Origin: Acidobacteriota bacterium
GTDB taxonomy: Bacteria > Acidobacteriota > Terriglobia > Terriglobales > Acidobacteriaceae
DNA: 33,294 bases
Reading direction: 5' to 3'
Assembly: GCA_003224815.1 (NCBI GenBank)
Contig: QHZW01000122.1
Coordinates: forward strand, 1 to 33,294
Positions 10,862 to 33,294 of the stretch are shown piece after piece (positions within the stretch are counted from its first letter, which is position 1; the number at the start of each line of letters is the position of its first letter). The notes beneath the pieces are model-generated. The model had not been told where the DNA came from. It searched no databases and saw only the letters and a list, made by a program, of their open reading frames with translations. A program made the translations under genes and the position numbers.

Positions 10862-10895
10862 CGCGTGGGGACGGGTGCCCTCACCCGTCCTGCAA
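10862..10895 (-). repeat. Dispersed palindromic element, copy A (short form)
   Basis: GGACGGGTG-CCCT-CACCCGTCC perfect 9-bp stem at 10869-10890. Its reverse complement shares GGACGGGTGAGGGCACCCGTCCCCACGCG with copy B. Confidence 0.85.
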
Positions 10896-10918: not shown

Positions 10919-13900
10919 TCAGTTCCCAGGCCCGTAATGGTAGGTGTATCCCCTCGGTTCATTCCCCGACATAAACCGCGTGTTGTACTTCAGCATATAG
11001 TCAAGATGTTCAGGATCGGCTGGAAACGATCTGTCCGCATACGGGTACTTTCCCATGTTCCTGAATGGCAGAGGCTCGACCGTGTTGCCATCGGCGGCGT
11101 AGAAATCCATGTCTTTTTCATAGCCGTTGGCCTGGAAGAAATAATCGCGCGTCCAACCTTTGGGAAGCACCGGAAGTTTGCCGGGATCAAACTCTAGCTG
11201 CACTTCTTCGCCAGAACCAAAAACCGCGAGCTTGTCGTCGAAAGAATTCAGCAGCGGCACGACATCGCCGTAGCGCGTGTACTCTCCCGCCTGACGGGCG
11301 TAAGGCCCAGTGCGGCTGACCTGCTCGTAAACGTACTTCACATTACCCGGCGGCAAATCCTCGATTTGGCGCGGATAGCCGTGGAAGCCAAGATTGGCTT
11401 TCCTCAGTGGGATTTCATTGATTTTGTAGTTTCGGTTTTGTTGGCTCCGGTCAACCAGAATGCTGTCCCAGTAGATTTGCAGGTTCGTGGTGATGCGGAT
11501 GCGCGTGGTGCCGAGCGGAAGCTTGCCGCTGAGATCGGCGGTGATGGTTTTGGGCAGGCCGGCGGGGAAACCCATATCGTTGGTGACGCGGCCCCACTCG
11601 CTTGGAGCTGCGGAGCTGCGCTCCGCCGGACGGGTGAGGGCACCCGTCCCCACGCGGGCTATCTCAGCTTCGACAAAAGGCGCAGTCGCTTCGATTCCCG
11701 CTTGCGACGCCGCGTACATACCCGTTGCAGTGAAGTACTCGATTTCCCCGTGCATCAGCAAGCGCAGCGGGCCTCCGCGATAGGGCTCCCCCAGATCAAG
11801 GACGAGGCTGTGCGGCTTGGTGAAGCCTTTGAACGGAAGCAAATCGAAATTGCCGACGTATTTGTGCGCGAGAAGATCGGGGAGAAGGTTGTTGCCTTTA
11901 TCGTCCCAGGCTCCGGCGGGAGGTTTCGCGTTGCTGCTGGTCACAACTTTGAATTCGGGATAGGGCGGGGTGCTGGCGAAGTATTCGTTGGGATAGACCT
12001 CTTCGTTCGCGGGGTGGTCCACGGCTACGAGTTTGACCGCGTCAAGATAGACGACCTCTTCCATGGGTTCCATCAGGCGGAAACTGAGGGTTCTGCGTGG
12101 ACGGACCTGGAGGGGAGCCCCTACACGTGAGGAGCTTCGCTCCTCCGGGCGGGTGGGGGCACCCATTCGACTTCCTCCCTCCGGTCGATCGCTCAGGGCA
12201 GGCCCCGCCCCTACGTGGGCCGAGGAGGTTCGGGCGTCTGCGCCCAGGGAATCACTAGAAATGGGGTGCCCCGCTTCTCGCTGGTTTTGCGAGAAGTGGG
12301 ACTCTCCGGACTTATCTAACTCGCGAATCAGATTGCGATCAATCTTCACCCACTCCGTGGGACGCGGGATGTTGCGTTCGTTTGGTCCGACCCAATGCCC
12401 AACGACTCCCGCGCCGAGAAGGTCTGAGACGAGTTCGTAATGCTTGCCGTTCCAGACGAATAATGTCGGGCATGAACTGCCGCGGCGATCAAGCTCCGTG
12501 AAATCCGCCTGCTTGTTCGCGGCCACTTCGATTTCGTCTTGCAGCACGCCGCCGGGCCAGAGCATGCGCACGACATCGGCTTGCTTGGCCTGCCCCAGGC
12601 CGACGGTGAGATACGGCGAGTTCTGCCCGAGATATCCGTTGGAGCCGTAGATCTCATATTTCTGGCGAATGCCGTCGGAGAACACTTCGACCTTGGTCCC
12701 GATGGCACCCTTGTTGCTGTTCAGTCCTTTAAGCGCGAGCCGCAGCCAGTTGTTCTTGTTGCCGCCTTCGTTCTTGAGCAGGACGGTAGGGCCGTGGTTC
12801 TGGGTGATGAGCAGGTCGGTCGCGCCGTCGTTGTCGTAGTCTCCAGTGATGATGGCGCGCGGATCTTTGAGCTGAATCTTGTCGAGATCTACGTCGGCGG
12901 TGACATCTTTCCATCCATCCGGGCCGAGATTTCGGAACAGCTTGATTTCGCTTTTGCCTTCTTTCGTTTCGCCCACAGCGACGAGGTCAACCCAGCCGTC
13001 ATCGTCGTAATCGAAAGCAGCGACGCCATAGGCGCGGGCCCAATTAGTCTCGGGAAACTTTACTTCCTCGAAGGATTTGCCGTGGTTATTACGCCAGAGC
13101 GAAATGCCTGGCGCTCCGTAATGCGTGAAGGCCACATCCATCCAGCCGTCGTGATCGAAGTCGAGCGCCGCGATACCAGATGCATTCGAGATAATCTGGC
13201 CTGACCATGGTTCCTCAACTGAGAACTTCCCTTCTCGCGGATTCTTGAAAATAGCGGGCTTCCGACCGACACCAGCCATGACCAAGTCGATCGCGCGGTC
13301 ATTGTTATAATCCGTGCCCATAGCTGAAACGAAAACGCCGAGCCCTGAGGCGTCCAATCCAGTCGAACCACTAACATCGGTGAAAGTCCCATCACCGTTA
13401 TTCCGCCAAACAACGTTGACGGTGACTACTTCTCCCTCAGATCCACTGCCTTCCGCAACCACGAATGGTGCATTTCGTCGTGCCATGGCACGCATCACTA
13501 ACAGGTCGACATCGCCGTCGTGATCGTAGTCAACGAATGTGAGCCCCCCCGTCACGTCGCTGGTTCGAACGCCAGCCGTCTCAGTCATATCTTTAAACGC
13601 GCCGTTCTTTTCGTTGTGCAGAAGCAGAAGCTTGGCTCTTTCCACGCCACCCGCAATGGAATGTTGTTTCAAGGTAACGGCTAAGTCGGCAAAACCGTCG
13701 TTGTCGTAGTCTCCCGCCGTACAGCTGAGTGCGCGCTGCTTCGGATCTAAACCAGCCTGTCTCGTAACGTCCTCGAACCTGCCACTTCCAATGTTGTGGT
13801 AGAACACCAACCCACCTTGTGGGCCGCCGTCCGCGACAAAGAGATCCACCTTGCCATCATCGTCAAAATCCAAGAAGCAGGCTCCTGATCCTAGCTCGAA

Positions 13901-14680
13901 CGCCGGCTCTTCATCGTAGATACCAGGATGCCGAGAGACGATCCCCGCCTCCTTCGTCACATCCACAAACTTCACCGGAATTTGAGGCGGAACTTTGACC
14001 GTGGCAGCTTGCGACTCCTCGGCCAGCGAATATTTGCCCTGCTCGCCATAGGCCAGGCTCATGGCCGAGCCGAGTTTGTTTTGCGTGACGTACTGGAAGC
14101 GCGCCAGGTGCTCGCGAGCGTGCGGGCTGTCGCCGGACTGCTGATAGGCGCGCGACAGTCCGAACTGCGCCGAGGCGTGCAGCGGATTCAACTTGAGCGC
14201 ATGGTCGAATGCGTCAATCGCCTGCGGAAACTGCTTGAGCTGCGAATACACTGTACCGAGGAAGTACCAGGTGTCGGCATCACTGTCGTCGAGCTCGATG
14301 ACGTGCTTAAAATCTTCGATCGCAGCCTGGGGATCGCTGCTGTTCTTGTTGAGCATGCCGAGCGCGTACCAGACGTGCGGATCTTTGGGATCGCTTTTGG
14401 CTGCGTCATCAAGAACTTTCTTCGCTTCATCCACATGCGCAAGCGCCAGTTGGGCGATGCCCTGGTTGATTTTCGCTGCGCGGAGATTCGGATCGGCTGC
14501 GGCGGCATCCTGAAAATACTTTAGGCCTTTTTCAAACAACTGCTGATTCATGTAGGCGGAGCCGAGATTGTTCAGGCGTGCGGCGTCGGCAGGGTCAGGT
14601 TTGTTTTCAGGAGAGGCGGCGATCAAGATCAGCGCAGCCGCAAGCAGTCCAGCCGTGCAAAGCAGCAGGTTAGATTTCAT
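10919..14680 (-). CDS. TPR + FG-GAP/VCBS repeat + ASPIC/UnbV (CRTAC1-like) secreted protein, with two in-frame palindromic-element insertions
   Basis: TPR N-terminus (NNLGSAYMNQQLFEKGLKYFQDAAAADPNL...); seven D-x-D-x-D/R-x3-D FG-GAP motifs (e.g. DFDDDGKVD, DYDNDGFAD, DFDHDGWMD); ASPIC region (GAIGTKVEVFSDGIRQKYEIYGSNGYLGQNSPYLTVGLGQ). Likely start MKSNLLLCTAG at 14680; the ORF is open to 14704. Confidence 0.88.
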   Translation of the reverse strand: MKSNLLLCTAGLLAAALILIAASPENKPDPADAARLNNLGSAYMNQQLFEKGLKYFQDAAAADPNLRAAKINQGIAQLALAHVDEAKKVLDDAAKSDPKDPHVWYALGMLNKNSSDPQAAIEDFKHVIELDDSDADTWYFLGTVYSQLKQFPQAIDAFDHALKLNPLHASAQFGLSRAYQQSGDSPHAREHLARFQYVTQNKLGSAMSLAYGEQGKYSLAEESQAATVKVPPQIPVKFVDVTKEAGIVSRHPGIYDEEPAFELGSGACFLDFDDDGKVDLFVADGGPQGGLVFYHNIGSGRFEDVTRQAGLDPKQRALSCTAGDYDNDGFADLAVTLKQHSIAGGVERAKLLLLHNEKNGAFKDMTETAGVRTSDVTGGLTFVDYDHDGDVDLLVMRAMARRNAPFVVAEGSGSEGEVVTVNVVWRNNGDGTFTDVSGSTGLDASGLGVFVSAMGTDYNNDRAIDLVMAGVGRKPAIFKNPREGKFSVEEPWSGQIISNASGIAALDFDHDGWMDVAFTHYGAPGISLWRNNHGKSFEEVKFPETNWARAYGVAAFDYDDDGWVDLVAVGETKEGKSEIKLFRNLGPDGWKDVTADVDLDKIQLKDPRAIITGDYDNDGATDLLITQNHGPTVLLKNEGGNKNNWLRLALKGLNSNKGAIGTKVEVFSDGIRQKYEIYGSNGYLGQNSPYLTVGLGQAKQADVVRMLWPGGVLQDEIEVAANKQADFTELDRRGSSCPTLFVWNGKHYELVSDLLGAGVVGHWVGPNERNIPRPTEWVKIDRNLIRELDKSGESHFSQNQREAGHPISSDSLGADARTSSAHVGAGPALSDRPEGGSRMGAPTRPEERSSSRVGAPLQVRPRRTLSFRLMEPMEEVVYLDAVKLVAVDHPANEEVYPNEYFASTPPYPEFKVVTSSNAKPPAGAWDDKGNNLLPDLLAHKYVGNFDLLPFKGFTKPHSLVLDLGEPYRGGPLRLLMHGEIEYFTATGMYAASQAGIEATAPFVEAEIARVGTGALTRPAERSSAAPSEWGRVTNDMGFPAGLPKTITADLSGKLPLGTTRIRITTNLQIYWDSILVDRSQQNRNYKINEIPLRKANLGFHGYPRQIEDLPPGNVKYVYEQVSRTGPYARQAGEYTRYGDVVPLLNSFDDKLAVFGSGEEVQLEFDPGKLPVLPKGWTRDYFFQANGYEKDMDFYAADGNTVEPLPFRNMGKYPYADRSFPADPEHLDYMLKYNTRFMSGNEPRGYTYHYGPGN
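11605..11655 (+). repeat. Dispersed palindromic element, copy B (inside coding sequence)
   Basis: GCGGAG-CTGCG-CTCCGC hairpin (11610-11626) followed by GGACGGGTG-AGGG-CACCCGTCC (11628-11649) and CCACGCG. Confidence 0.88.
12115..12225 (+). repeat. Dispersed palindromic element, copy C (long form, inside coding sequence)
   Basis: GAGGAG-CTTCG-CTCCTC (12129-12145), then CGGGCGGGTGGGGGCACCCATTCGACTTCCTCCCTCCGGTCGATCGCTCAGGGCAGGCCCCGCCCCTACG; the 3' part closely matches copies D and E. Confidence 0.9.
12263..12303. repeat. Second palindromic element type, next to copy C (inside coding sequence)
   Basis: CCCGCTTCTCGC-TGGTTTT-GCGAGAAGTGGG (12270-12300), 12-bp stem with one G.U pair, preceded by GGGGTGCC. 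Confidence 0.7.
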
Positions 14681-14723
14681 TGCTAGAGATTTAATCACAA
14701 TCACGATTCACGTAGACCGGCTG

Positions 14724-14846
14724 CCGTCCCCCGGGACGGCGAGCTCTGCTCGCCAATTGCCGCGCAGAGCGCGGCCGGGCGGGTGAGGGCACCCGTTCGA
14801 CTTCCTCCCTCCGGTCGGTCGCTCAGGGCAGGCTCCGCCCTACGTT
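14724..14846 (+). repeat. Dispersed palindromic element, copy D (long form plus extra hairpins; intergenic)
   Basis: CCGTCCC-CC-GGGACGG (14724-14739), GGCGAG-CTCTG-CTCGCC (14738-14754), GCCGCGC-AGA-GCGCGGC (14759-14775), then CGGGCGGGTGAGGGCACCCGTTCGACTTCCTCCCTCCGGTCGGTCGCTCAGGGCAGGCTCCGCCCTACG. Confidence 0.9.
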
Positions 14847-14859
14847 CTTCCTTTGCGAG

Positions 14860-16569
14860 TTAGTGGTTTTCTGCTACGACCCTTGCGACTTTTGCCGCTA
14901 CCGGTTTCCTTGCAGGAGCGCCGTACGGCCGCGAAGTCACGATTCCTTTTCCTTCTTCCACCGTGACCTTCTGGCCTGCGCCAATATTCGACAGCTTGTC
15001 AGTTTGGCCGCTGGGCCAGCGGACTTCGACTGAATCGGCTTTCGTTTTTTGTCCCAGTCCGAAACTTGCTACGAGCTCGCTTTGCGAAAGATAGCTTGAT
15101 CCACTGCGAACCATCTTAGATTGCTTTTCGCCTCCGGAAGCTACCGTGATTACCGCGCCAATGCCGTCGCGGTTCGACTTCGTGCCAACCAGTTTGATGC
15201 GCAGGCTGCGATTGGTCACGCCTTCGTTGTGGAATAGAAACACGCGTCCCCCGTTGGTCGTCATCAGGACGTCCAAAGCGCCGTCATTATCTATGTCGGC
15301 GTAAGCGGCACCGCGGCCAACCTTCGGCGCGGCAAAGGTGGCGCCGAGCGACTGTGTGGCTTCCATAAACTTTCCGCCTCCTAAATTGCGAAAAACGTGA
15401 GGAGGCTCAGCATAGCTCACGCGCTTCTGCACTTTTTCGATTTGATCTTCAATGTGACCGTCGGAGACGAAAATGTCAGGCCAGCCGTCGTTGTCATAAT
15501 CGAAGAAGAAGCAGCCGAAGCCAAGCGTCACCAGCGTGGCGCGGCCGACCTCTGAGCTGGGAGCTTCATCGACGAACAGTCCATTACCTTCGTTGTGGTA
15601 AAGCGAAACCATCTGGTTGGCAAAATTAGAAATGATCAAGCTGGGCCGGCCGGAGCGGTCGTAATCGGCGGCATCGACCCCCATTCCGGCACGAGCAATG
15701 CCATCCTCGCTGAATGCAATACCGGCGGGGACAGCTTTCTCTTCAAATGTGCCGTCGCCTTTATTCAGATAAAGCTTGTTCGGCTGCGTATCATTCGCGA
15801 GCACAACATCGGGCCAGCCATCGCCGTTGTAGTCGAGAACCGCGAGGCCAAGAGTCTTCGAAGTGTTATCGAAAAAGTGTGCCTTCTCGGTCGCATCCTC
15901 AAACTTTCCATTGCCGAGGTTGTGCCACAGACGCGCGGTTGATCCTTTATAAGACTCCGGCGTGCAGTACGATTTGTGCGTTCCGTCGAGCGTGCAGAAA
16001 AGATCGCCCTGCAACGACCACTGGACGTAGTTTGCGACCACCAGATCGAGCTTGCCGTCGCGGTCGTAATCAACCCAGGCGGCGCTGGTCGAAAATTCGT
16101 TTGGACCCAAAAGACCTGCGGACTTGGTCACGTCCGCGAACGTGCCGTTGCCGTTATTGCGGAAAAGATGGCTCTGCCCAAGCGCAGCAATGAAGATGTC
16201 CTCTGGGCCGTCGTTGTCGTAGTCACCAATGGCGACGCCGAGGCCGAAGATGGGAACTGCGAGTCCCGATTTTGCAGTTACATCGGTGAACGTTCCGTCG
16301 TGATTGTTGTGGTAAAGCTTGGGCGTGGTCGCGGGGCCAGGATGTCCCGGCCAGTTCTCCCCGTTGACCAGCAAAATGTCAGGCCAGCCGTCGTTGTCGT
16401 AATCAATGAACCCGCAACCGGGACCCATGGTCTCGGGCAGATATTTTTTTCCAAAGGCCGCGTTATTGTGCGTGAAATGGATTCCGGCTTGGGCAGTGAT
16501 GTCGCGGAAGGTGATTTGAGCGGAGGCGGAGAGGGCGATCAATAAGAATACGATGAGGAATTTCGGCAT
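14860..16569 (-). CDS. FG-GAP/VCBS repeat and ASPIC/UnbV domain secreted protein (CRTAC1-like)
   Basis: Signal peptide MPKFLIVFLLIALSASA; repeats DYDNDGWPD, DYDNDGPED, DYDRDGKLD, DYNGDGWPD, DYDNDGWPD, DIDNDGALD; C-terminal LVGTKSNRDGIGAVITVASGGEKQSKMVRSGSSYLSQSELVASFGLGQ. Confidence 0.92.
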   Translation of the reverse strand: MPKFLIVFLLIALSASAQITFRDITAQAGIHFTHNNAAFGKKYLPETMGPGCGFIDYDNDGWPDILLVNGENWPGHPGPATTPKLYHNNHDGTFTDVTAKSGLAVPIFGLGVAIGDYDNDGPEDIFIAALGQSHLFRNNGNGTFADVTKSAGLLGPNEFSTSAAWVDYDRDGKLDLVVANYVQWSLQGDLFCTLDGTHKSYCTPESYKGSTARLWHNLGNGKFEDATEKAHFFDNTSKTLGLAVLDYNGDGWPDVVLANDTQPNKLYLNKGDGTFEEKAVPAGIAFSEDGIARAGMGVDAADYDRSGRPSLIISNFANQMVSLYHNEGNGLFVDEAPSSEVGRATLVTLGFGCFFFDYDNDGWPDIFVSDGHIEDQIEKVQKRVSYAEPPHVFRNLGGGKFMEATQSLGATFAAPKVGRGAAYADIDNDGALDVLMTTNGGRVFLFHNEGVTNRSLRIKLVGTKSNRDGIGAVITVASGGEKQSKMVRSGSSYLSQSELVASFGLGQKTKADSVEVRWPSGQTDKLSNIGAGQKVTVEEGKGIVTSRPYGAPARKPVAAKVARVVAENH

Positions 16570-19550
16570 TACTTGGATTCCCGAGTGATTGAATTCTTGG
16601 CGGGATACGTCGAGCTGCGCTCGACCGGACGGGTGAGGGCACCCGTTCGGCTCCTTCCCTGCGGGCTGTCGCTCAGGGCAAGCTCCGTCCCTGCATGATT
16701 CTTGCCCGTGCCCGCCGGACTTGCAGTTGCCTGTCTCAAGTCCCGCAGCGGTACCGACACGTGTTCATGAATCGCTTGACGCTCGTTGTTGTCTTCCGGA
16801 TGGGCCTGACGATAGGGGCCCGTAATGGTCTGGGCAGACTCGTCTGCTTTGAATCGCAGGTAACGCGCCTGATGTTCTTTCGCCTGTTTCTCGTCGCCCA
16901 GGCCGTTGTAGCAGAGCATCAGGTTGTATTGCGCCTGCAAGTCTTCGGGATCAACCGCCAGAACGCCATTCAACGTGCTGATCGCCTCTTTGTATTTTCG
17001 TTGTAGAAATTGAATTCGTCCAAGGTCGTTAATCGCGACGCGATCGCGCGGATATTGCGCCAACACTTTGCGCAACTCGACGGCAGAGCCGTCGTAATTG
17101 CCATCACTGCGCAGGACGCGCGCATAAAAATAATGAGCACGGGCGAGGTCGGGACTTAATTCGATTGCTTTCGTCAGAACGGTGCGGGCACGGTCCATGT
17201 CGCCCTCCTGTACCGCCGCGCGGCCGATGTTCACCCATCCGTCGGGATTCTTGGGATCGATTTCGGTCACCTTCTGAAATGAAGCTTCTGCGCCCTTCAG
17301 ATCGCCTTGCAACAGCAGACCGATGCCGTAGTCGTTCCAGCGCTGCCAATCTTCAGCGCGAAGGTCAGTCTTTGGCTGGAGCGGCGGGGCGTTGCGCGAG
17401 CCAACCTGGAGAGTAACTTCGTCTTCTGCAATAGCGACGACTGGAACGTCGGGAATCTTTTCTTCTTTCGCTGACACTCCGTTCAGAGATCCGGTGAATG
17501 CGTACTTACGGTCATCGTAACCTGGGCCTTGATTGCCGGGCTTTTCAGTATCAGGAACTCCGGCGAATGCAAACTGCGTGTTCCACCACGAAAATTTGCG
17601 ATAGCAGAGCCGCGCATGCAGCGTGATCTTGTTCCCAACATTTTCAGGAATGTGCATTTGATAGTGCACAGTGTCGGCTGCACCCGGCGGAATCAAGCGG
17701 ACATAAACAACGGACCGCGTTGACCACGCATTGCGTTTGTTGATCGGATTTCCGTGCTCGTCAATCTGCAGCGAACGATAAAAGTGCGCTCCGTTTTCGA
17801 CGGGGCCCTTGCCGTTGTCCTCGACCATGCCGCTCCAAAAGATCGTCTGGTTTTTATCGTCAGTGGCCTTCAGTTCCAGCCATGTATCGTAGGCGTCGAC
17901 GGTTCCACCCGGAAAGAAGTGCCCGATTTTCTTGGTACGCACAACGACGTCTACGCGGACGGTATCGCCACGACGAAGCAGCGGCTGCACGCGATTCAAT
18001 GGGGCCGTAATCGGAGAAGCCTCTGTAGTGGCCGCCGCAATTTTGCTTTCTGCTTCTTCACCCACTGCGAACGTCGTTTGAATATCGGATTGCGGCGTCG
18101 CGACCGCCTTCGCTTGCACAGCTTCCGGCGAAACGGCGAAGATGTCCACGCTCAAGATGCCGTTCTTTAGGAAATTTTCGGTGAGCTTCAGTTGATCGGC
18201 ATCTTCGTTCGCAGTTGGAACCGCAGTATTCGCCGCTGGGAATCGGTGCGAATGCACGAACCCATTCACGTTGCCCATGTCTGCCGAGTGCGTCAGAGGC
18301 ATGTGGCAGTCCGCGCATTGCTGTGAATGCGGGGGATAATAAAAAGATCGCGCACCCTGCCCTGAGACTCCGCTCGCCTGCCAGTTGTCATACTCGTTAA
18401 AGCCGCGAATCCAGCGATATTGATTCACGGGAACGTCGAGGTGTACTTTGTGGCAGCTTGAGCAGAACTCCGCCGTCTGATCGCGCATGAAAGGCTTGAG
18501 GAATACGCGGCGGTGTGGCTCGGGATTCAGATTAACGAGAAAATCATGCACGGTGCGCACAAGCGGATTCTTACTCGCCGCGAGCTCGTGCAACTTCGGG
18601 TATTCCAGGTAGAAGTCCCCCTGTCCCATCGTGCTTTTAACGTTGGCAATCGAGTGGCACATCATACAACCGAGTCCGGCCTGAGACTCGGGACGATGCA
18701 CAATCTGCTTGATTGGCGTATCCATCAATCCGCTATAAAGAACGGCGGGGTCATGACATCCACCGCACCATTTAGAAGGCTTGGTGCCGATGCGGTCCTG
18801 CATGTACTCAATGCTTTTGCGATACCACTGATTGTTGAACGAGGAAAAGTGGTGAGCCGAGCTGTTCCACTGTTTGTAGATATCGGCATGGCACCGTTCA
18901 CAGGACTGCGACTCCATGAAGAATTTGCTGGGAATTTTTTGGCGACCGTACACCTGGGCTGAACTCGGAAAGAAATCGCCTTCCGGGCCATCACCTTCTT
19001 CATTCATGCTTTCGGGGGCATCAGCCGGATTCTGAATGCGCGCCGAATTCAGCCAGCGCGAGTTGCGGGAGTACCAACTGGCAAAGCTGAGGGCGACCAG
19101 CGCGATCGCACACAGCGAGTAACGCAGCGTCGCACGACCAAAGCCAGCCGACAGCCATCCCCGACGGCCAGTCCAATCGGCAAAAAGAATGCCGCTGCCG
19201 GCAACCGCCAGCAGGATGTGCAGATATAACCAATTCCATTCGGCGCGCAGCGTGCCAAGCTTGATCAGGAGAATCCCGAGAATTCCCGCAGCAATCAGGA
19301 GGATCCATCCCAGCCGCGCGATCAATGAACCACCGCGCACTCGTTGGAATAGAAAAATAATCAGGTAAACGGTGGCAATGACACCAGCGAGCGCATGCAG
19401 AAGGACTACGATTGCATAGAAGACATTAGGCTGAGGAACCGCGTACAGATAAACCGCCGAGGCAAAGAGAAAAATGAGCAGAGGCGGCAAAATTCGACGA
19501 CCGAAAAACGTCTTTATCCTGGGGATCATTTCCGGACTGGCGGCGGCCAC
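16569..19550 (-). CDS. Membrane-anchored pentaheme c-type cytochrome (cytochrome c554-like) with C-terminal TPR repeats
   Basis: Five CxxCH motifs (CERCH, CGGCH, CMMCH, CSSCH, CADCH); N-terminal hydrophobic segments; TPRs (GWVNIGRAAVQEGDMDRARTVLTKAIELSPDLARAHYFYARVL). TAATG stop/start overlap with the downstream FG-GAP gene. Confidence 0.9.
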   Translation of the reverse strand: MAAASPEMIPRIKTFFGRRILPPLLIFLFASAVYLYAVPQPNVFYAIVVLLHALAGVIATVYLIIFLFQRVRGGSLIARLGWILLIAAGILGILLIKLGTLRAEWNWLYLHILLAVAGSGILFADWTGRRGWLSAGFGRATLRYSLCAIALVALSFASWYSRNSRWLNSARIQNPADAPESMNEEGDGPEGDFFPSSAQVYGRQKIPSKFFMESQSCERCHADIYKQWNSSAHHFSSFNNQWYRKSIEYMQDRIGTKPSKWCGGCHDPAVLYSGLMDTPIKQIVHRPESQAGLGCMMCHSIANVKSTMGQGDFYLEYPKLHELAASKNPLVRTVHDFLVNLNPEPHRRVFLKPFMRDQTAEFCSSCHKVHLDVPVNQYRWIRGFNEYDNWQASGVSGQGARSFYYPPHSQQCADCHMPLTHSADMGNVNGFVHSHRFPAANTAVPTANEDADQLKLTENFLKNGILSVDIFAVSPEAVQAKAVATPQSDIQTTFAVGEEAESKIAAATTEASPITAPLNRVQPLLRRGDTVRVDVVVRTKKIGHFFPGGTVDAYDTWLELKATDDKNQTIFWSGMVEDNGKGPVENGAHFYRSLQIDEHGNPINKRNAWSTRSVVYVRLIPPGAADTVHYQMHIPENVGNKITLHARLCYRKFSWWNTQFAFAGVPDTEKPGNQGPGYDDRKYAFTGSLNGVSAKEEKIPDVPVVAIAEDEVTLQVGSRNAPPLQPKTDLRAEDWQRWNDYGIGLLLQGDLKGAEASFQKVTEIDPKNPDGWVNIGRAAVQEGDMDRARTVLTKAIELSPDLARAHYFYARVLRSDGNYDGSAVELRKVLAQYPRDRVAINDLGRIQFLQRKYKEAISTLNGVLAVDPEDLQAQYNLMLCYNGLGDEKQAKEHQARYLRFKADESAQTITGPYRQAHPEDNNERQAIHEHVSVPLRDLRQATASPAGTGKNHAGTELALSDSPQGRSRTGALTRPVERSSTYPAKNSITRESK
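16605..16697 (+). repeat. Dispersed palindromic element, copy E (inside the cytochrome C-terminal coding sequence)
   Basis: GTCGAG-CTGCG-CTCGAC (16609-16625), CGGACGGGTGAGGGCACCCGTTCGGCTCCTTCCCTGCGGGCTGTCGCTCAGGGCAAGCTCCGTCCCTGCA. Confidence 0.88.
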
Positions 19551-27492: not shown

Positions 27493-30400
27493 CTACCGGT
27501 GGAGCCACATCCGCAATGCCGAAAGCAATTGCTCCGTATTCACAGGCTTCGCTAGATACTCGGACGCGCCTGCTTCCAGGCACTTCTCTCGATCCCCCTT
27601 CATGGCTTTGGCCGTCAGGGCAACGATCGGCAAGCGCCGGAATGACGGGTTCTGACGAATCACCTGCATGGTCTCGTAACCATCCATCTCCGGCATCATG
27701 ATGTCCATTAAAACAATGGCCATGTCTGGCGTGGACTCGAGCATCGAAATTGCTTCGCGTCCAGTTCCAGCAGTCAGCACGGTCATACCGCGGCGTTCCA
27801 GCACACTACTCAGAGCGAAAATGTTGCGCACATCATCGTCCACGACCAGCACCTTGCGGCCGACCAGAGCCTCGTCGGAACGATGCAAACGGTCAAGCAT
27901 TCTCTGCTTTTCCGCCGGCAGATCGGCAACGACCCGGTGCAGGAAGAGAGCAGTCTCGTCGAGCAATCGCTCGGGAGACTCCACGCCCTTCACCACCACA
28001 CTCCGCGCCAGACTATGGAGGCGAGCGTCTTCATCAGGGGACAACTCCTTGCCAGTAAAGACGACAACTGGCAAGTCGCCCAGCGCCGGAGCATCGCGCA
28101 GTCGTTCGAGGACATCGAAGCCGCTCATATCAGGCAAGCGCAGGTCGAGCACAACACAATCAAAGGATTCGCCGTTGATTGCTTCGAGCGCGTCCGCGAA
28201 TTCCTTAATACGGCTCAACGCCTGGTTCAATCCTTCCGGGGTGGTAGGCTTGGTCACGAAGCCGAAGGCGCCGCGAGCGAGGCCGTGATGGCGGTCCTCG
28301 TCAAGGGTCAGCATCTGCACCGGAATGTGGCGCGTAGCTGAATCCTGTTTCAAATGGTTGAGAACGGTCCAGCCCAGCATGTCGGGCAGGAAGACGTCGA
28401 GTGAGACCGCGCTGGGATGATACTCGCGTGCCAGAGCCAAAGCGTCAGCGCCGCGAGTCGCCACAAGAACTTTAAAGCCCTTATCGCGCGCAAGGTCGAG
28501 CAGCACACGCGCGTAGTGCTGATCATCTTCCACGATCAGTAGGACAGAATCATCGGGCTGCACATTCTTGCGATCATCTTCGATGTGCTCGTCCGTGCGC
28601 TCTACCACATTAACTGCCGAGAGTTGCAGCGGGGCGCTGGAAATCCGGCCTTCCCTCGTAAGCATGCCGGCGGAAGGTCCGACATAGGTTTGCGGCAGAT
28701 ACAGAGTGAAAGTGCTGCCCTTGCCGGGCGTGCTGCGCAACTGAATCTCTCCGCCCAGCAGGTTTGCCAACTCGCGGCTGATGGCGAGTCCCAGACCGGT
28801 GCCGCCGTACTTGCGGCTGGTGCCGGCATCCGCCTGTTGGAAGGCCTCGAAAATAATGCGTTGCTTGTCGGCGGGAATTCCGATCCCAGTGTCTGCAACT
28901 TCGAAGGCGATCACTGAAGCCGCTTTCGACAGGATCGGGTGATCCTCTGTCCAGCCGCTTGTTGCAGCAGCGACCGACAGGCGCACGCCGCCTTGTTCGG
29001 TGAACTTGAACGCATTCGACAGCAGGTTCTTTAATACCTGTTGCAGGCGCTTCGAGTCGGTGACCAGGCTACGCGAAAGATGCGTATCAGTATGAATTTC
29101 GAACGACAACCGCTTGTTTTCCGCTTCGTGCTTGAACGGACGGCCGATCGCTTCCAGCACGCTGGCAAAGAAGACCTCTTCGGCTTCGACCGAAACCGTT
29201 CCAGACTCGATTTTCGAAAGATCGAGAATGTCGCTGATAAGGTTCAGCAAGTCTGTGCCTGCGCCGTGAATGGTGCGGGCAAACTCCACCTGCTTGGGAG
29301 TGAGATTGCCACCCGGGTTTTCGGTCAACTGCTGGCCGAGAACGAGAATACTGTTGAGAGGCGTACGTAGCTCGTGTGACATGTTCGCCAGAAATTCCGA
29401 TTTGTACTTCGACGTAAGCGCCAGCTCTTTGGCCTTTTCTTCAAGAGCCCGACGCGCCTGCTCGATTTCCTGGTTCTTTCTTTCTACTTCGGCGTTTTGT
29501 TCGGCGAGCTGCTGGGCTTTCTGCGCCAACTGTTCGTTGGTCTGCTGCAATTCCTTCTGCTGTGCCTGCAATTCTGCAGCAAGCTGTTGTGATTGCTTCA
29601 ACAGTCCTTCAGTTTGCATGGTGGCTTCAATACTGTTGAGCACAATGCCGATGCTGGAAGTGAGTTGCTCGAGAAAAGCCAAATGAGAAGCGGTGAACGC
29701 TCCCAGGGATGCTAATTCGATCACCGCCTTCACTCGGTCTTCGAACAAAATCGGCAACACAATCACATTTCGCGGAACCGCCTCGAATAACCCGGAACGA
29801 ATTGCCACAGTTCGGTCGGGTGGTAAATCGCTAATGAGCATGCGGCGTTTTTCGACTGCGCATTGGCCGATGAGTCCTTCGCCCGCTTTGAGCTTGCGCA
29901 GATGCCCGTCCTGTCCGTCGCCTGCAAATGCGGAGAGCAAGGCCATGCCGCCAGAATCTTCACCCTCCATCTGATAGATCACGCCTTGCTGGGCGTTGAC
30001 CAGCGGAGCAAGTTCGGACAGAAGCATGCGACCGACAGTTCCCAAATCTCGCTGCCCTTGCAACATGCCAGTGAAGCGTGCAAGGTTCGTTTTCAGCCAG
30101 TCCTGTTCTGTGTTGCGCTCCGTCGTAAGACGAAGGTTGTTAATCATGGTGTTGATGTTGTCTTTGAGTTCCGCGACCTCGCCGCTGGCTTCCACCTGAA
30201 TCGATCGCGTGAGATCTCCTTTAGTGACGGCGGTTGCGACTTCTGCGATGGCGCGGACTTGGTTAGTGAGGTTATCGGCAAGCAGATTCACATTGCCGAC
30301 AAGATCTTTCCAAGTTCCGGCTGCGCCCGGGACGTTGGCCTGACCACCGAGGCGACCTTCGACGCCGACTTCGCGGGCCACGGTCGTCACCTGATCAGCG

Positions 30401-33294
30401 AAGGTGGCAAGCGTGTCGGTCATGTTGTTGATCGTTTCGGCGAGGGCAGCGACTTCGCCCTTTGCATTGACGGTCAGCTTCTGGGTGAGGACGCCGTTAG
30501 CGACGGCAGTCACAACTTTAACAATGCCGCGCACCTGCTCGGTTAAGTTCGCGGCCATGACGTTCACGTTGTCAGTGAGATCCTTCCAGGTTCCGGCGAC
30601 GCCCGGCACCTGCGCCTGGCCGCCAAGCTTACCTTCGGTTCCGACTTCTCGCGCCACGCGCGTGACTTCGGCGGCAAAGGCGTTGAGCTGGTCCACCATC
30701 GTATTAATGGTGTTTTTGAGTTCTAGAATCTCGCCTTTCACATCGACCGTGATTTTGCGCGACAGGTCGCCGCGAGCCACAGCCGTTGTGACTTCGGCGA
30801 TATTACGCACCTGGCCCGTCAGATTGCCTGCCATCGCATTGACCGAGTCGGTCAAATCTTTCCACGTTCCGGCGACCCCGGGCACGTTGGCCTGACCGCC
30901 AAGACGTCCTTCGGAACCGACTTCGCGCGCCACACGCGTTACCTCGGCAGCGAAGGAGCGCAACTGCTCGACCATCGTGTTCAGCGTTTCTTTTAGCTGC
31001 AGGATCTCGCCTCGCACGTCCACCGTGATCTTCTTCGATAAGTCGCCGTTGGCGATAGCAGTTGCTACCTCGGCGATGTTCCGCACCTGGCCGGTGAGGT
31101 TCGAGGCCATGAAGTTAACGTTATCGGTTAAATCCTTCCAGGTCCCGGCGACGTCAGGCACCTCGGCCTGACCTCCGAGTTTGCCGTCCGTTCCGACTTC
31201 GCGGGCCACGCGAGTGACTTCGCCTGCGAAGGCGTTGAGCTGGTCCACCATGGTGTTGATGGTGTTCTTGAGTTCAAGAATTTCGCCTTTCACATCTACC
31301 GTGATTTTGCGCGACAGATCGCCGCGAGCAACCGCGGTGGTAACCTCGGCAATGTTTCGCACCTGAGCTGTAAGATTTCCGGCCATGGAGTTGACCGAGT
31401 CGGTCAAGTCTTTCCACGTTCCGGCGACACCAGGGACATTTGCCTGACCGCCGAGACGGCCTTCTGAGCCGACTTCGCGAGCAACGCGGGTCACTTCGCC
31501 CGCGAATGCGTTTAGCTGGTCCACCATAGTGTTGATAGTTTCTTTCAACAGAAGAATTTCGCCACTGACGTTGACGGTGATTTTCTTTGACAAGTCTCCA
31601 TTAGCGATGGCGGTTGAAACTTCAGCAATGTTTCGTACCTGACCAGTAAGGTTGCTGGCCATGGAGTTGACGGAATCGGTCAAGTCTTTCCATGTACCGC
31701 CGACGCCCGGAACTTGCGCTTGACCGCCAAGCTTTCCGTCAGTGCCCACTTCGCGGGCCACGCGCGTTACCTCCGAAGCAAACGACCGGAGCTGGTCCAC
31801 CATCGTGTTCAGCGTTTCTTTCAGCTGCAAGATTTCACCACGGACGTCGACCGTGATTTTGCGAGAGAGGTCGCCGCGAGCCACCGCCGTAGCGACTTCC
31901 GCGATATTTCGCACTTGCGCCGTGAGGTTCCCCGCCATGAAGTTGACGTTGTCGGTAAGGTCCTTCCAGGTTCCGGCAACGCCCGGTACCTGCGCCTGTC
32001 CACCAAGCTTCCCTTCCGTGCCCACTTCGCGCGCTACGCGAGTGACTTCTCCAGCGAATGCGTTGAGCTGGTCCACCATGGTGTTGATGGTGTTCTTCAG
32101 TTCGAGAATTTCGCCTTTCACATCTACCGTGATTTTGCGCGACAGATCGCCGCGAGCAACCGCGGTTGTGACTTCAGCGATGTTTCGGACCTGACCGGTA
32201 AGGTTGCCGGCCATCGAATTGACCGAGTCGGTTAGATCCTTCCACGTGCCCGCGACACCCGGCACGTTGGCCTGTCCGCCGAGACGCCCTTCAGATCCGA
32301 CCTCGCGAGCCACTCGTGTCACTTCTCCGGCGAACCGATTCAACTGATCCACCATGGTGTTGAGCGTTTCCTTGAGCTGCAGAATTTCGCCGCGCACATC
32401 AACGGTGATTTTGCGGGAGAGGTCGCCACCGGCAATCGCGGTAGCAACTTCGGAGATGTTTCGCACCTGAGCAGTCAGGTTGCCCGCCATGAAGTTGACG
32501 TTATCGGTTAAGTCTTTCCACGTTCCCGCAACGCCGGGCACTTCGGCTTGACCGCCGAGTTTTCCTTCGGTTCCCACTTCTCGGGCGACGCGTGTGACTT
32601 CGCCGGCAAACGCATTCAGCTGGTCAACCATGGTGTTGATGGTCTCTTTGAGTTCCAGAATTTCGCCTTTGACATCTACGGTGATTTTGCGCGACAGGTC
32701 ACCGCGAGCAACGGCCGTCGTTACTTCCGCGATGTTTCGCACCTGTGCGGTAAGGTTTCCCGCCATCGCGTTTACGGAGTCGGTGAGATCTTTCCAAGTT
32801 CCGGCGACACCCGGGACGACAGCCTGTCCACCGAGTTTGCCGTCAGTTCCGACTTCCCGCGCGACTCTTGTTACTTCGCAAGCAAACGAACGCAACTGAT
32901 CCACCATTGTGTTGATGGCTTCTTTCAGCTGCAGGATTTCGCCGCGAACGTCCACTGTAATCTTGCGAGATAAATCTCCGCTGGCGACAGCATTGGTGAC
33001 TTCAGCAATATTGCGCACCTGGCCAGTCAGGTTGCTGGCCATCGAGTTCACTGAATCGGTCAGGTCTTTCCAGGTTCCGGCGACACCGGGCACCACGGCC
33101 TGACCGCCGAGCTTACCGTCAGTTCCCACTTCGCGTGCAACGCGCGTGACCTCTGAAGTGAACACGCCGAGCTGCTGGATCATCGTGTTGACGATTTCCG
33201 CCGAACGCAAGAATTCGCCTTCTAGCGGACGCCCATCAACGTCGAGACGCACAGTTTGAGTCAGATTTCCTTGGGCAACTGCGCCGATGGCGCG
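27493..33294 (-). CDS. Giant poly-HAMP hybrid sensor kinase: (HAMP)n-GAF-HisKA-HATPase_c-REC-REC(truncated)-REC; 5' end outside window
   Basis: At least 11 tandem 92-aa HAMP-pair units (30133-33168), GAF-like region, H-box [20 protein letters not shown], HATPase [17 protein letters not shown]-terminal REC regions ending [23 protein letters not shown] is open past 33252 to the window edge. Confidence 0.93.
30133..33168 (-). repeat. Tandem coding repeat: 11 consecutive 276-bp (92-aa) HAMP-pair units, continuing toward the window end
   Basis: Repeated [87 protein letters not shown]. Confidence 0.95.

Follow-up and report, generated by a model that had tools for sequence, protein, structure and literature searches.

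Introduction

The characteristics that define GTAG REPs and their associated REPtrons have been described previously (PMC3733652, PMC2817692). Di Nocera, De Gregorio, and Rocco (2013, PMC3733652) reported intragenic GTAG REPs that encode 20 to 30 amino acids in frame within genes for repair proteins and tRNA synthetases; in that work, the Acidobacteria are named for TIR-flanked transposases. In Rickettsia, the palindromic elements (RPEs) lie in frame in housekeeping proteins (PMC10969869, PMC3733652).

Here, we analyzed a palindromic repeat that recurs in a stretch of 33,294 nucleotides (the window) from a metagenome-assembled genome (MAG) of the Acidobacteriota (Terriglobales; 4.55-Mb draft assembly, 84% complete; G000 in the genome comparisons). 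A previous sequence-only reading had interpreted this repeat as a mobile, peptide-coding palindrome and the best candidate in this DNA for an undescribed system. The compared genomes are mostly draft MAGs, and gene calls derive from codon scores rather than transcripts. The family-wide survey covered 398 genomes of Acidobacteriaceae, while the REP classification set comprises 133 copies from 22 genomes, counts that are slightly low because the tag-based pattern skips the split copies C, D, and E of the window and a copy in an rRNA-methyltransferase-like gene (L021). Seemingly coding copies at the N terminus of genes were handled as probably untranslated.

Results

The repeat is a GTAG-tagged REP

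The unit consists of RYGTAG followed by a 9-bp hairpin (GGGCGGGTG-CCCT-CACCCGCCC) and a second, variable hairpin of 5 to 7 bp. The tag, (A/G)(C/T)GTAG or GTGG, is read on the other strand, and the 9-bp stem starts directly after it; among 116 classified copies, 88 carry GTAG and 17 carry GTGG. Folding of single copies as ssDNA supports this layout of tag and hairpin. In a covariation test, 96.7% of the cells in the 9-bp stem were paired, and 14 changes affected both sides of the stem compared with 3.1 in shuffles, with none of 500 shuffles reaching that number; one of the stem pairs occurs as G-C, A-T, and C-G.

In the 4.55-Mb draft, we found 28 copies at ≤1 mismatch and none for the reversed control. 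The repeat has a patchy spread: G000 has 28 copies, G003 has 36, G054 has 13, and G130 has about 30, while most of the 398 family genomes lack it. Most copies are intergenic (89 of 133), while 27 are located inside genes with a coding signal on both sides. An inverted GTAG partner with a hairpin is present downstream of 46 of 131 copies compared with 0 of 131 in the upstream control. These inverted pairs span about 50 to 160 bp, have GTAG at both ends, and are REPIN-like; their two halves usually belong to different REP types (CGGGTG and CCGGACG), and each half has an extra hairpin.

Altogether, the tag with its adjoining palindrome, the covarying hairpin, the interspersed and mainly intergenic copies, the head-to-head dimers, and the flanking RAYT genes described below are the features of a GTAG REP. 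The idea of an undescribed system does not hold, as in-frame intragenic copies of such repeats are published for other phyla (PMC3733652). Rather, the repeat probably represents a new GTAG REP family of Terriglobales, as judged from the text of PMC3733652, which covers 24 families.

Copies A to E and their host genes

The core of the repeat has 12 matches in the window at ≤3 mismatches compared with 1.1 expected, palindromic copies being counted twice. Copy A (10862..10890, plus strand) is a solo REP with a GTGG tag that lies between genes, upstream of a gene for a foldase-like protein (8803-~10790, minus strand). A called ORF of 719 aa extends across this copy but begins upstream of an internal ATG; copy A is, therefore, most likely not translated. 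Copies B and C are in frame in the same protein (host protein 1; 10919..14704, minus strand, with the start probably near 14680), which has TPR, FG-GAP, and ASPIC/UnbV regions. Copy B (11610..11655, minus strand; RVGTGALTRPAERSSA) is a solo REP. Copy C (12117..12217, minus strand; VGAGPALSDRPEGGSRMGAPTRPEERSSSRVGA) is split by a nested second palindromic repeat (12166..12204, minus strand) that encodes ALSDRPEGGSR, and the insert also holds a third, unrelated palindrome (12258..12304, minus strand) that encodes SHFSQNQREAGHPI and is common at this site in other species too. The intergenic copy D (14710..14845, minus strand) is a full inverted REP pair with GTAG...CTAC at its two ends; it contains the nested second repeat (14796-14833) and folds into consecutive hairpins. 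Copy E (16608..16697, minus strand), again split by the second repeat (about 16646-16684), lies in the C-terminal tail of host protein 2 (16569..19550, minus strand), a cytochrome c554/multihaem protein with TPRs.

In the two minus-strand ORFs, the translations are ...ARVGTGALTRPAERSSAAP for copy B, ...SRMGAPTRPEERSSSRVG for copy C, and ...SRTGALTRPVERSSTYP for copy E. This reproduces exactly the earlier observation that these copies are translated in one frame and orientation as TGALTRPxERSS-type peptides. The frame also stays open in intergenic copy D (RRAEPALSDRPEGGSRTGALTRPAALCAAIGEQSSPSRGTAAGLRES*), again as noted earlier. By itself, the agreement between three copies is weak evidence because four of the six frames are open in the GTAG form and because copies B and C share one gene and all genes here are on the minus strand; the chance of three window copies agreeing in frame is ~1/16 or higher. 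Elsewhere in the window (27493-33252), we noted a 1,919-aa hybrid sensor kinase with ~11 tandem 92-aa repeats, which we take to be HAMP-like.

The segments at sites B, C, and E are insertions

In outgroup orthologs of host protein 1, site B reads VEAxxxGKWxRV without an insert, and site C has only a turn (REKDGKLSFRL) or inserts of other repeats. At the tail with site E, G000 and G003 carry the REP peptide, G004 and G002 have degenerate forms of it, and other genera lack it. The empty sites are too diverged to place the junctions base by base. Because orthologs outside the genus lack these segments, we conclude that the segments are insertions, in line with the earlier suggestion of an in-frame, protein-tolerated insert analogous to the Rickettsia RPEs; the aligned orthologs do not all carry the segment as an ancestral domain. 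Copies C and E are common to several congeners, as might be the case if the segments were ancestral protein domains that are alike by chance. However, this reading is refuted by the empty sites in the outgroup genera, the same DNA is present in unrelated genes and between genes, and we give this alternative essentially no weight.

The orthologous copies at C and E in G003 are uninterrupted REPs, while in both G000 copies the second repeat (GCCTGCCCTGAGCGA...GAAGTCGAA), which is also present in copy D, interrupts the hairpin at one and the same point. Because the G003 copies do not have the nested piece, a longer conserved peptide is rejected: copies C and E indeed share ALSDxPxGxSR, as previously observed, but this upstream peptide is the translated nested repeat and not part of the element.

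At site E, the REP is identical in 37 of 39 positions between G000 and G003, while the four-fold sites of the gene are only 39% identical, arguing that a simple neutral old insertion is the wrong description of this site. At site C, G003 and G004 have the same base at 11 of the insert's 13 four-fold sites compared with 46% expected, a figure from G000 and G004 that serves as a stand-in for this pair. The insert DNA is being renewed or constrained, possibly by re-insertion, by gene conversion in an active family, or by selection on the hairpin.

Frame usage in genes is biased but not restricted to one frame

Among the 27 internal copies, which are partly orthologous across congeners so that the counts overstate their independence, 16 read as GALTRP, 6 as RVRAPAPT, and 4 as GEGTRP, the last two on the opposite strand, and 1 reads otherwise. 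Over the four open frames, the distribution is 16/0/6/4 (p = 9e-5), and 10 of the 27 copies are on the opposite strand. Thus, the single obligatory frame and orientation proposed from the window does not extend to the genomes; the equal distribution over all frames that had been named as counterevidence was not observed either, as the distribution is not uniform. An in-frame inverted pair may account for the two dominant frames, since its left end would read HVGAGALTRP and its right end RVRAPAPT(R/Q). Both leading frames are seen at the pair ends in S9 peptidase genes.

The bias toward one frame (16 of 26 copies in open frames) and the retention of the peptide at orthologous sites in G000, G003, and partly G004 would fit a palindrome that is selected for its peptide, as in an RPE-like element in which TGALTRPxERSS is kept in genes for some role. 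However, two-thirds of the copies (89 of 133) are intergenic and the visible constraint sits on the DNA hairpin, observations that also speak against a peptide-coding element as originally proposed; the same loops accept unrelated palindromes (CHPERSEGS.., SQNQRDMGHP..) and both strands of this REP; and the conservation at site C is at silent DNA positions (the 11 of 13 four-fold sites). We consider selection for the peptide highly improbable.

Overall, REPs are depleted in genes. The intragenic share is 22 of 63 copies in the genus of the window (G000 and G003) and 3 of 44 in G130 and G054. Enrichment of the GTGG tag in genes was not significant among classified copies. We also observed that a REP in a B12-dependent ribonucleotide reductase gene (L007, around 1501) breaks the frame in the assembly: eight codons past the REP, the frame ends, and the rest of the protein is encoded in another frame, possibly reflecting an assembly or sequencing error, a pseudogene, or recoding.

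The same loops are used repeatedly and by unrelated palindromes

REP hosts include the housekeeping proteins AlaRS, ValRS, ThrRS, UvrC, YchF, MurF, SelA, and Tgt, of which AlaRS and UvrC are examples of essential proteins, as well as an S9 peptidase and members of the aconitase and ABC-F families. G000 and G003 share the REP site of AlaRS. In UvrC, it is in the same loop in G002, G054, and G130, with a REP-like insert of opposite orientation in G001 and other REP-like inserts in further species. Across many Terriglobales (loci L335-L364 for UvrC and L365-L394 for AlaRS), one loop in each of these two proteins holds varied REP-like inserts, which occur in either orientation. Similarly, the S9 peptidase genes (L019, L038, L107) of G000, G003, and G004 have inverted REP pairs at one site that differ in orientation and type. 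Site C of host protein 1 (12117-12304 of the window; loci L195-L274) has inserts above the 14-residue baseline in 32 of 58 orthologs, and these inserts represent several unrelated palindromic families, i.e., CHPERSEGS..DPSPQKAAAQDDK, SQNQRDMGHP, TSDLGPQ, and the REP. In a literature search, we found no paper on "CHPERSEGS" and none on an intragenic REP together with UvrC.

Because site C is filled by unrelated palindromes, permissive loops are favored over a special role of this peptide. Consistently, a low-confidence AlphaFold model of the C-terminal domain of host protein 1 (pLDDT 48) places sites B and C in segments of low pLDDT that lie between strands. A variant of the REP explanation is that the loops are DNA hot spots that reflect a target-sequence preference of the RAYT rather than permissive protein sites. 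The reuse of the UvrC, AlaRS, and S9 peptidase sites in both orientations would agree with this idea; however, the recurrent sites also take palindromes of unrelated sequence, REPs are depleted in genes overall, and TnpA_REP requires only a dinucleotide at its cut site (PMC8266576), making such hot spots unlikely.

A hairpin-loop base differs between intragenic and intergenic copies

C replaces the hairpin-loop T in 14 of 27 intragenic copies compared with 8 of 89 intergenic copies (p = 5.6e-6), and this is the only one of 28 positions that differs between the two groups. For any change at this position, p is 2.6e-5, or about 7e-4 after correction for 28 positions. The difference persists for independent sites assigned by hand (10 of 21 versus 8 of 89, p = 1.4e-4) and within the genus (12 of 21 intragenic versus 2 of 39 intergenic copies, p = 1.3e-5). 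The comparison involves loci L002, L015, L019, L027, L038, L103, L113, L114, L127, and L280 versus intergenic copies. General decay of intragenic copies is unsupported as the cause, as the other positions are alike in the two groups.

The IS608 and ISDra2 transposases contact a loop T, and related TnpA_REPs that act on perfect palindromes tolerate no change at certain loop positions (PMC8266576). By analogy, we tentatively suggest, while regarding it as a minority prospect, that intragenic REPs are disarmed, i.e., that the T-to-C change may stop cutting by the transposase and leave a permanent in-frame insert, while intergenic copies would stay mobile. If so, this change would be a way in which mobile hairpins turn harmless inside genes. 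Alternatively, the encoded amino acid may be under selection, with Leu changing to Pro or, when the opposite strand is read, Arg to Gly.

RAYT genes are flanked by the repeat in congeners

In the congener G004, an intact gene matches NF047646 (REP-associated tyrosine transposase) above the cut-off. Its stop codon, TAG, lies within a REP tag, and after the gene comes an inverted REP pair whose second half is the REP studied here. In the REP-rich congener G003, an inverted pair of this kind follows a decayed RAYT gene (71% identical). A pattern search of the window's own assembly (84% complete; seven Y1_Tnp hits) gave no RAYT flanked by this REP. Other RAYT genes (L079, L294) have related REPs on both flanks (CGGGCG- and CCGGACG-types, GGAG tag) and are further REPtron families within the same bacterial family.

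Discussion

The observed family structure, tag, stem covariation, and pairing, together with the RAYT linkage in congeners, the absence from outgroups, and the recurrence in loops, are best explained by a RAYT-mobilized GTAG REP family that is tolerated in genes where it keeps the frame in permissive loops or tails, and we regard this explanation as very probable. According to this model, the REP is a non-autonomous single-strand element that would be mobilized by a RAYT (TnpA_REP) and would land mostly between genes. Intragenic insertions would survive only if they keep the frame and lie in permissive loops or tails; such inserts are likely translated and presumably neutral. The peptide would, therefore, be a by-product and not the purpose of the element.

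These findings add a large phylum of soil bacteria to the groups with in-frame insertion of palindromes, which was known from Rickettsia and a few Proteobacteria. Moreover, the spread over species exposes the process, as the same loops are filled, empty, or hold other repeats or either orientation; and it yields a natural inventory of loops that tolerate insertions in core enzymes, AlaRS and UvrC among them.

In Pseudomonas, REPINs, reportedly described by Bertels and Rainey in 2011, are said to consist of two inverted REPs with GTAG-type ends that form the apparent mobile unit. The inverted pairs described here have the same arrangement and type of ends; however, their halves are usually different REPs, each with its own extra hairpin. 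With the Rickettsia RPEs, the repeat shares the in-frame insertion in housekeeping proteins; however, REP-type RPEs are CGTC-tagged and without a known transposase, whereas the Terriglobales REP lacks the CGTC tag, is GTAG/GTGG-tagged, and is RAYT-linked. Some Coxiella QMITEs also insert in frame or at the C terminus, but these are MITEs of 150 to 400 bp and not tagged short hairpins (PMC5896051).

The closest likeness is to the GTAG REPs of PMC3733652, which have the same GTAG tag, short GC-rich hairpin, head-to-head dimers, and RAYT linkage, in which the TAG of the tag also serves as a stop codon, and for which in-frame copies and, occasionally, same-site insertions are reported. Compared with that account, as far as its text describes the families, the Terriglobales repeat has a new consensus, new hosts, and a much wider recurrence at the same sites. 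It also differs in having a nested second repeat and a loop base that distinguishes intragenic from intergenic copies.
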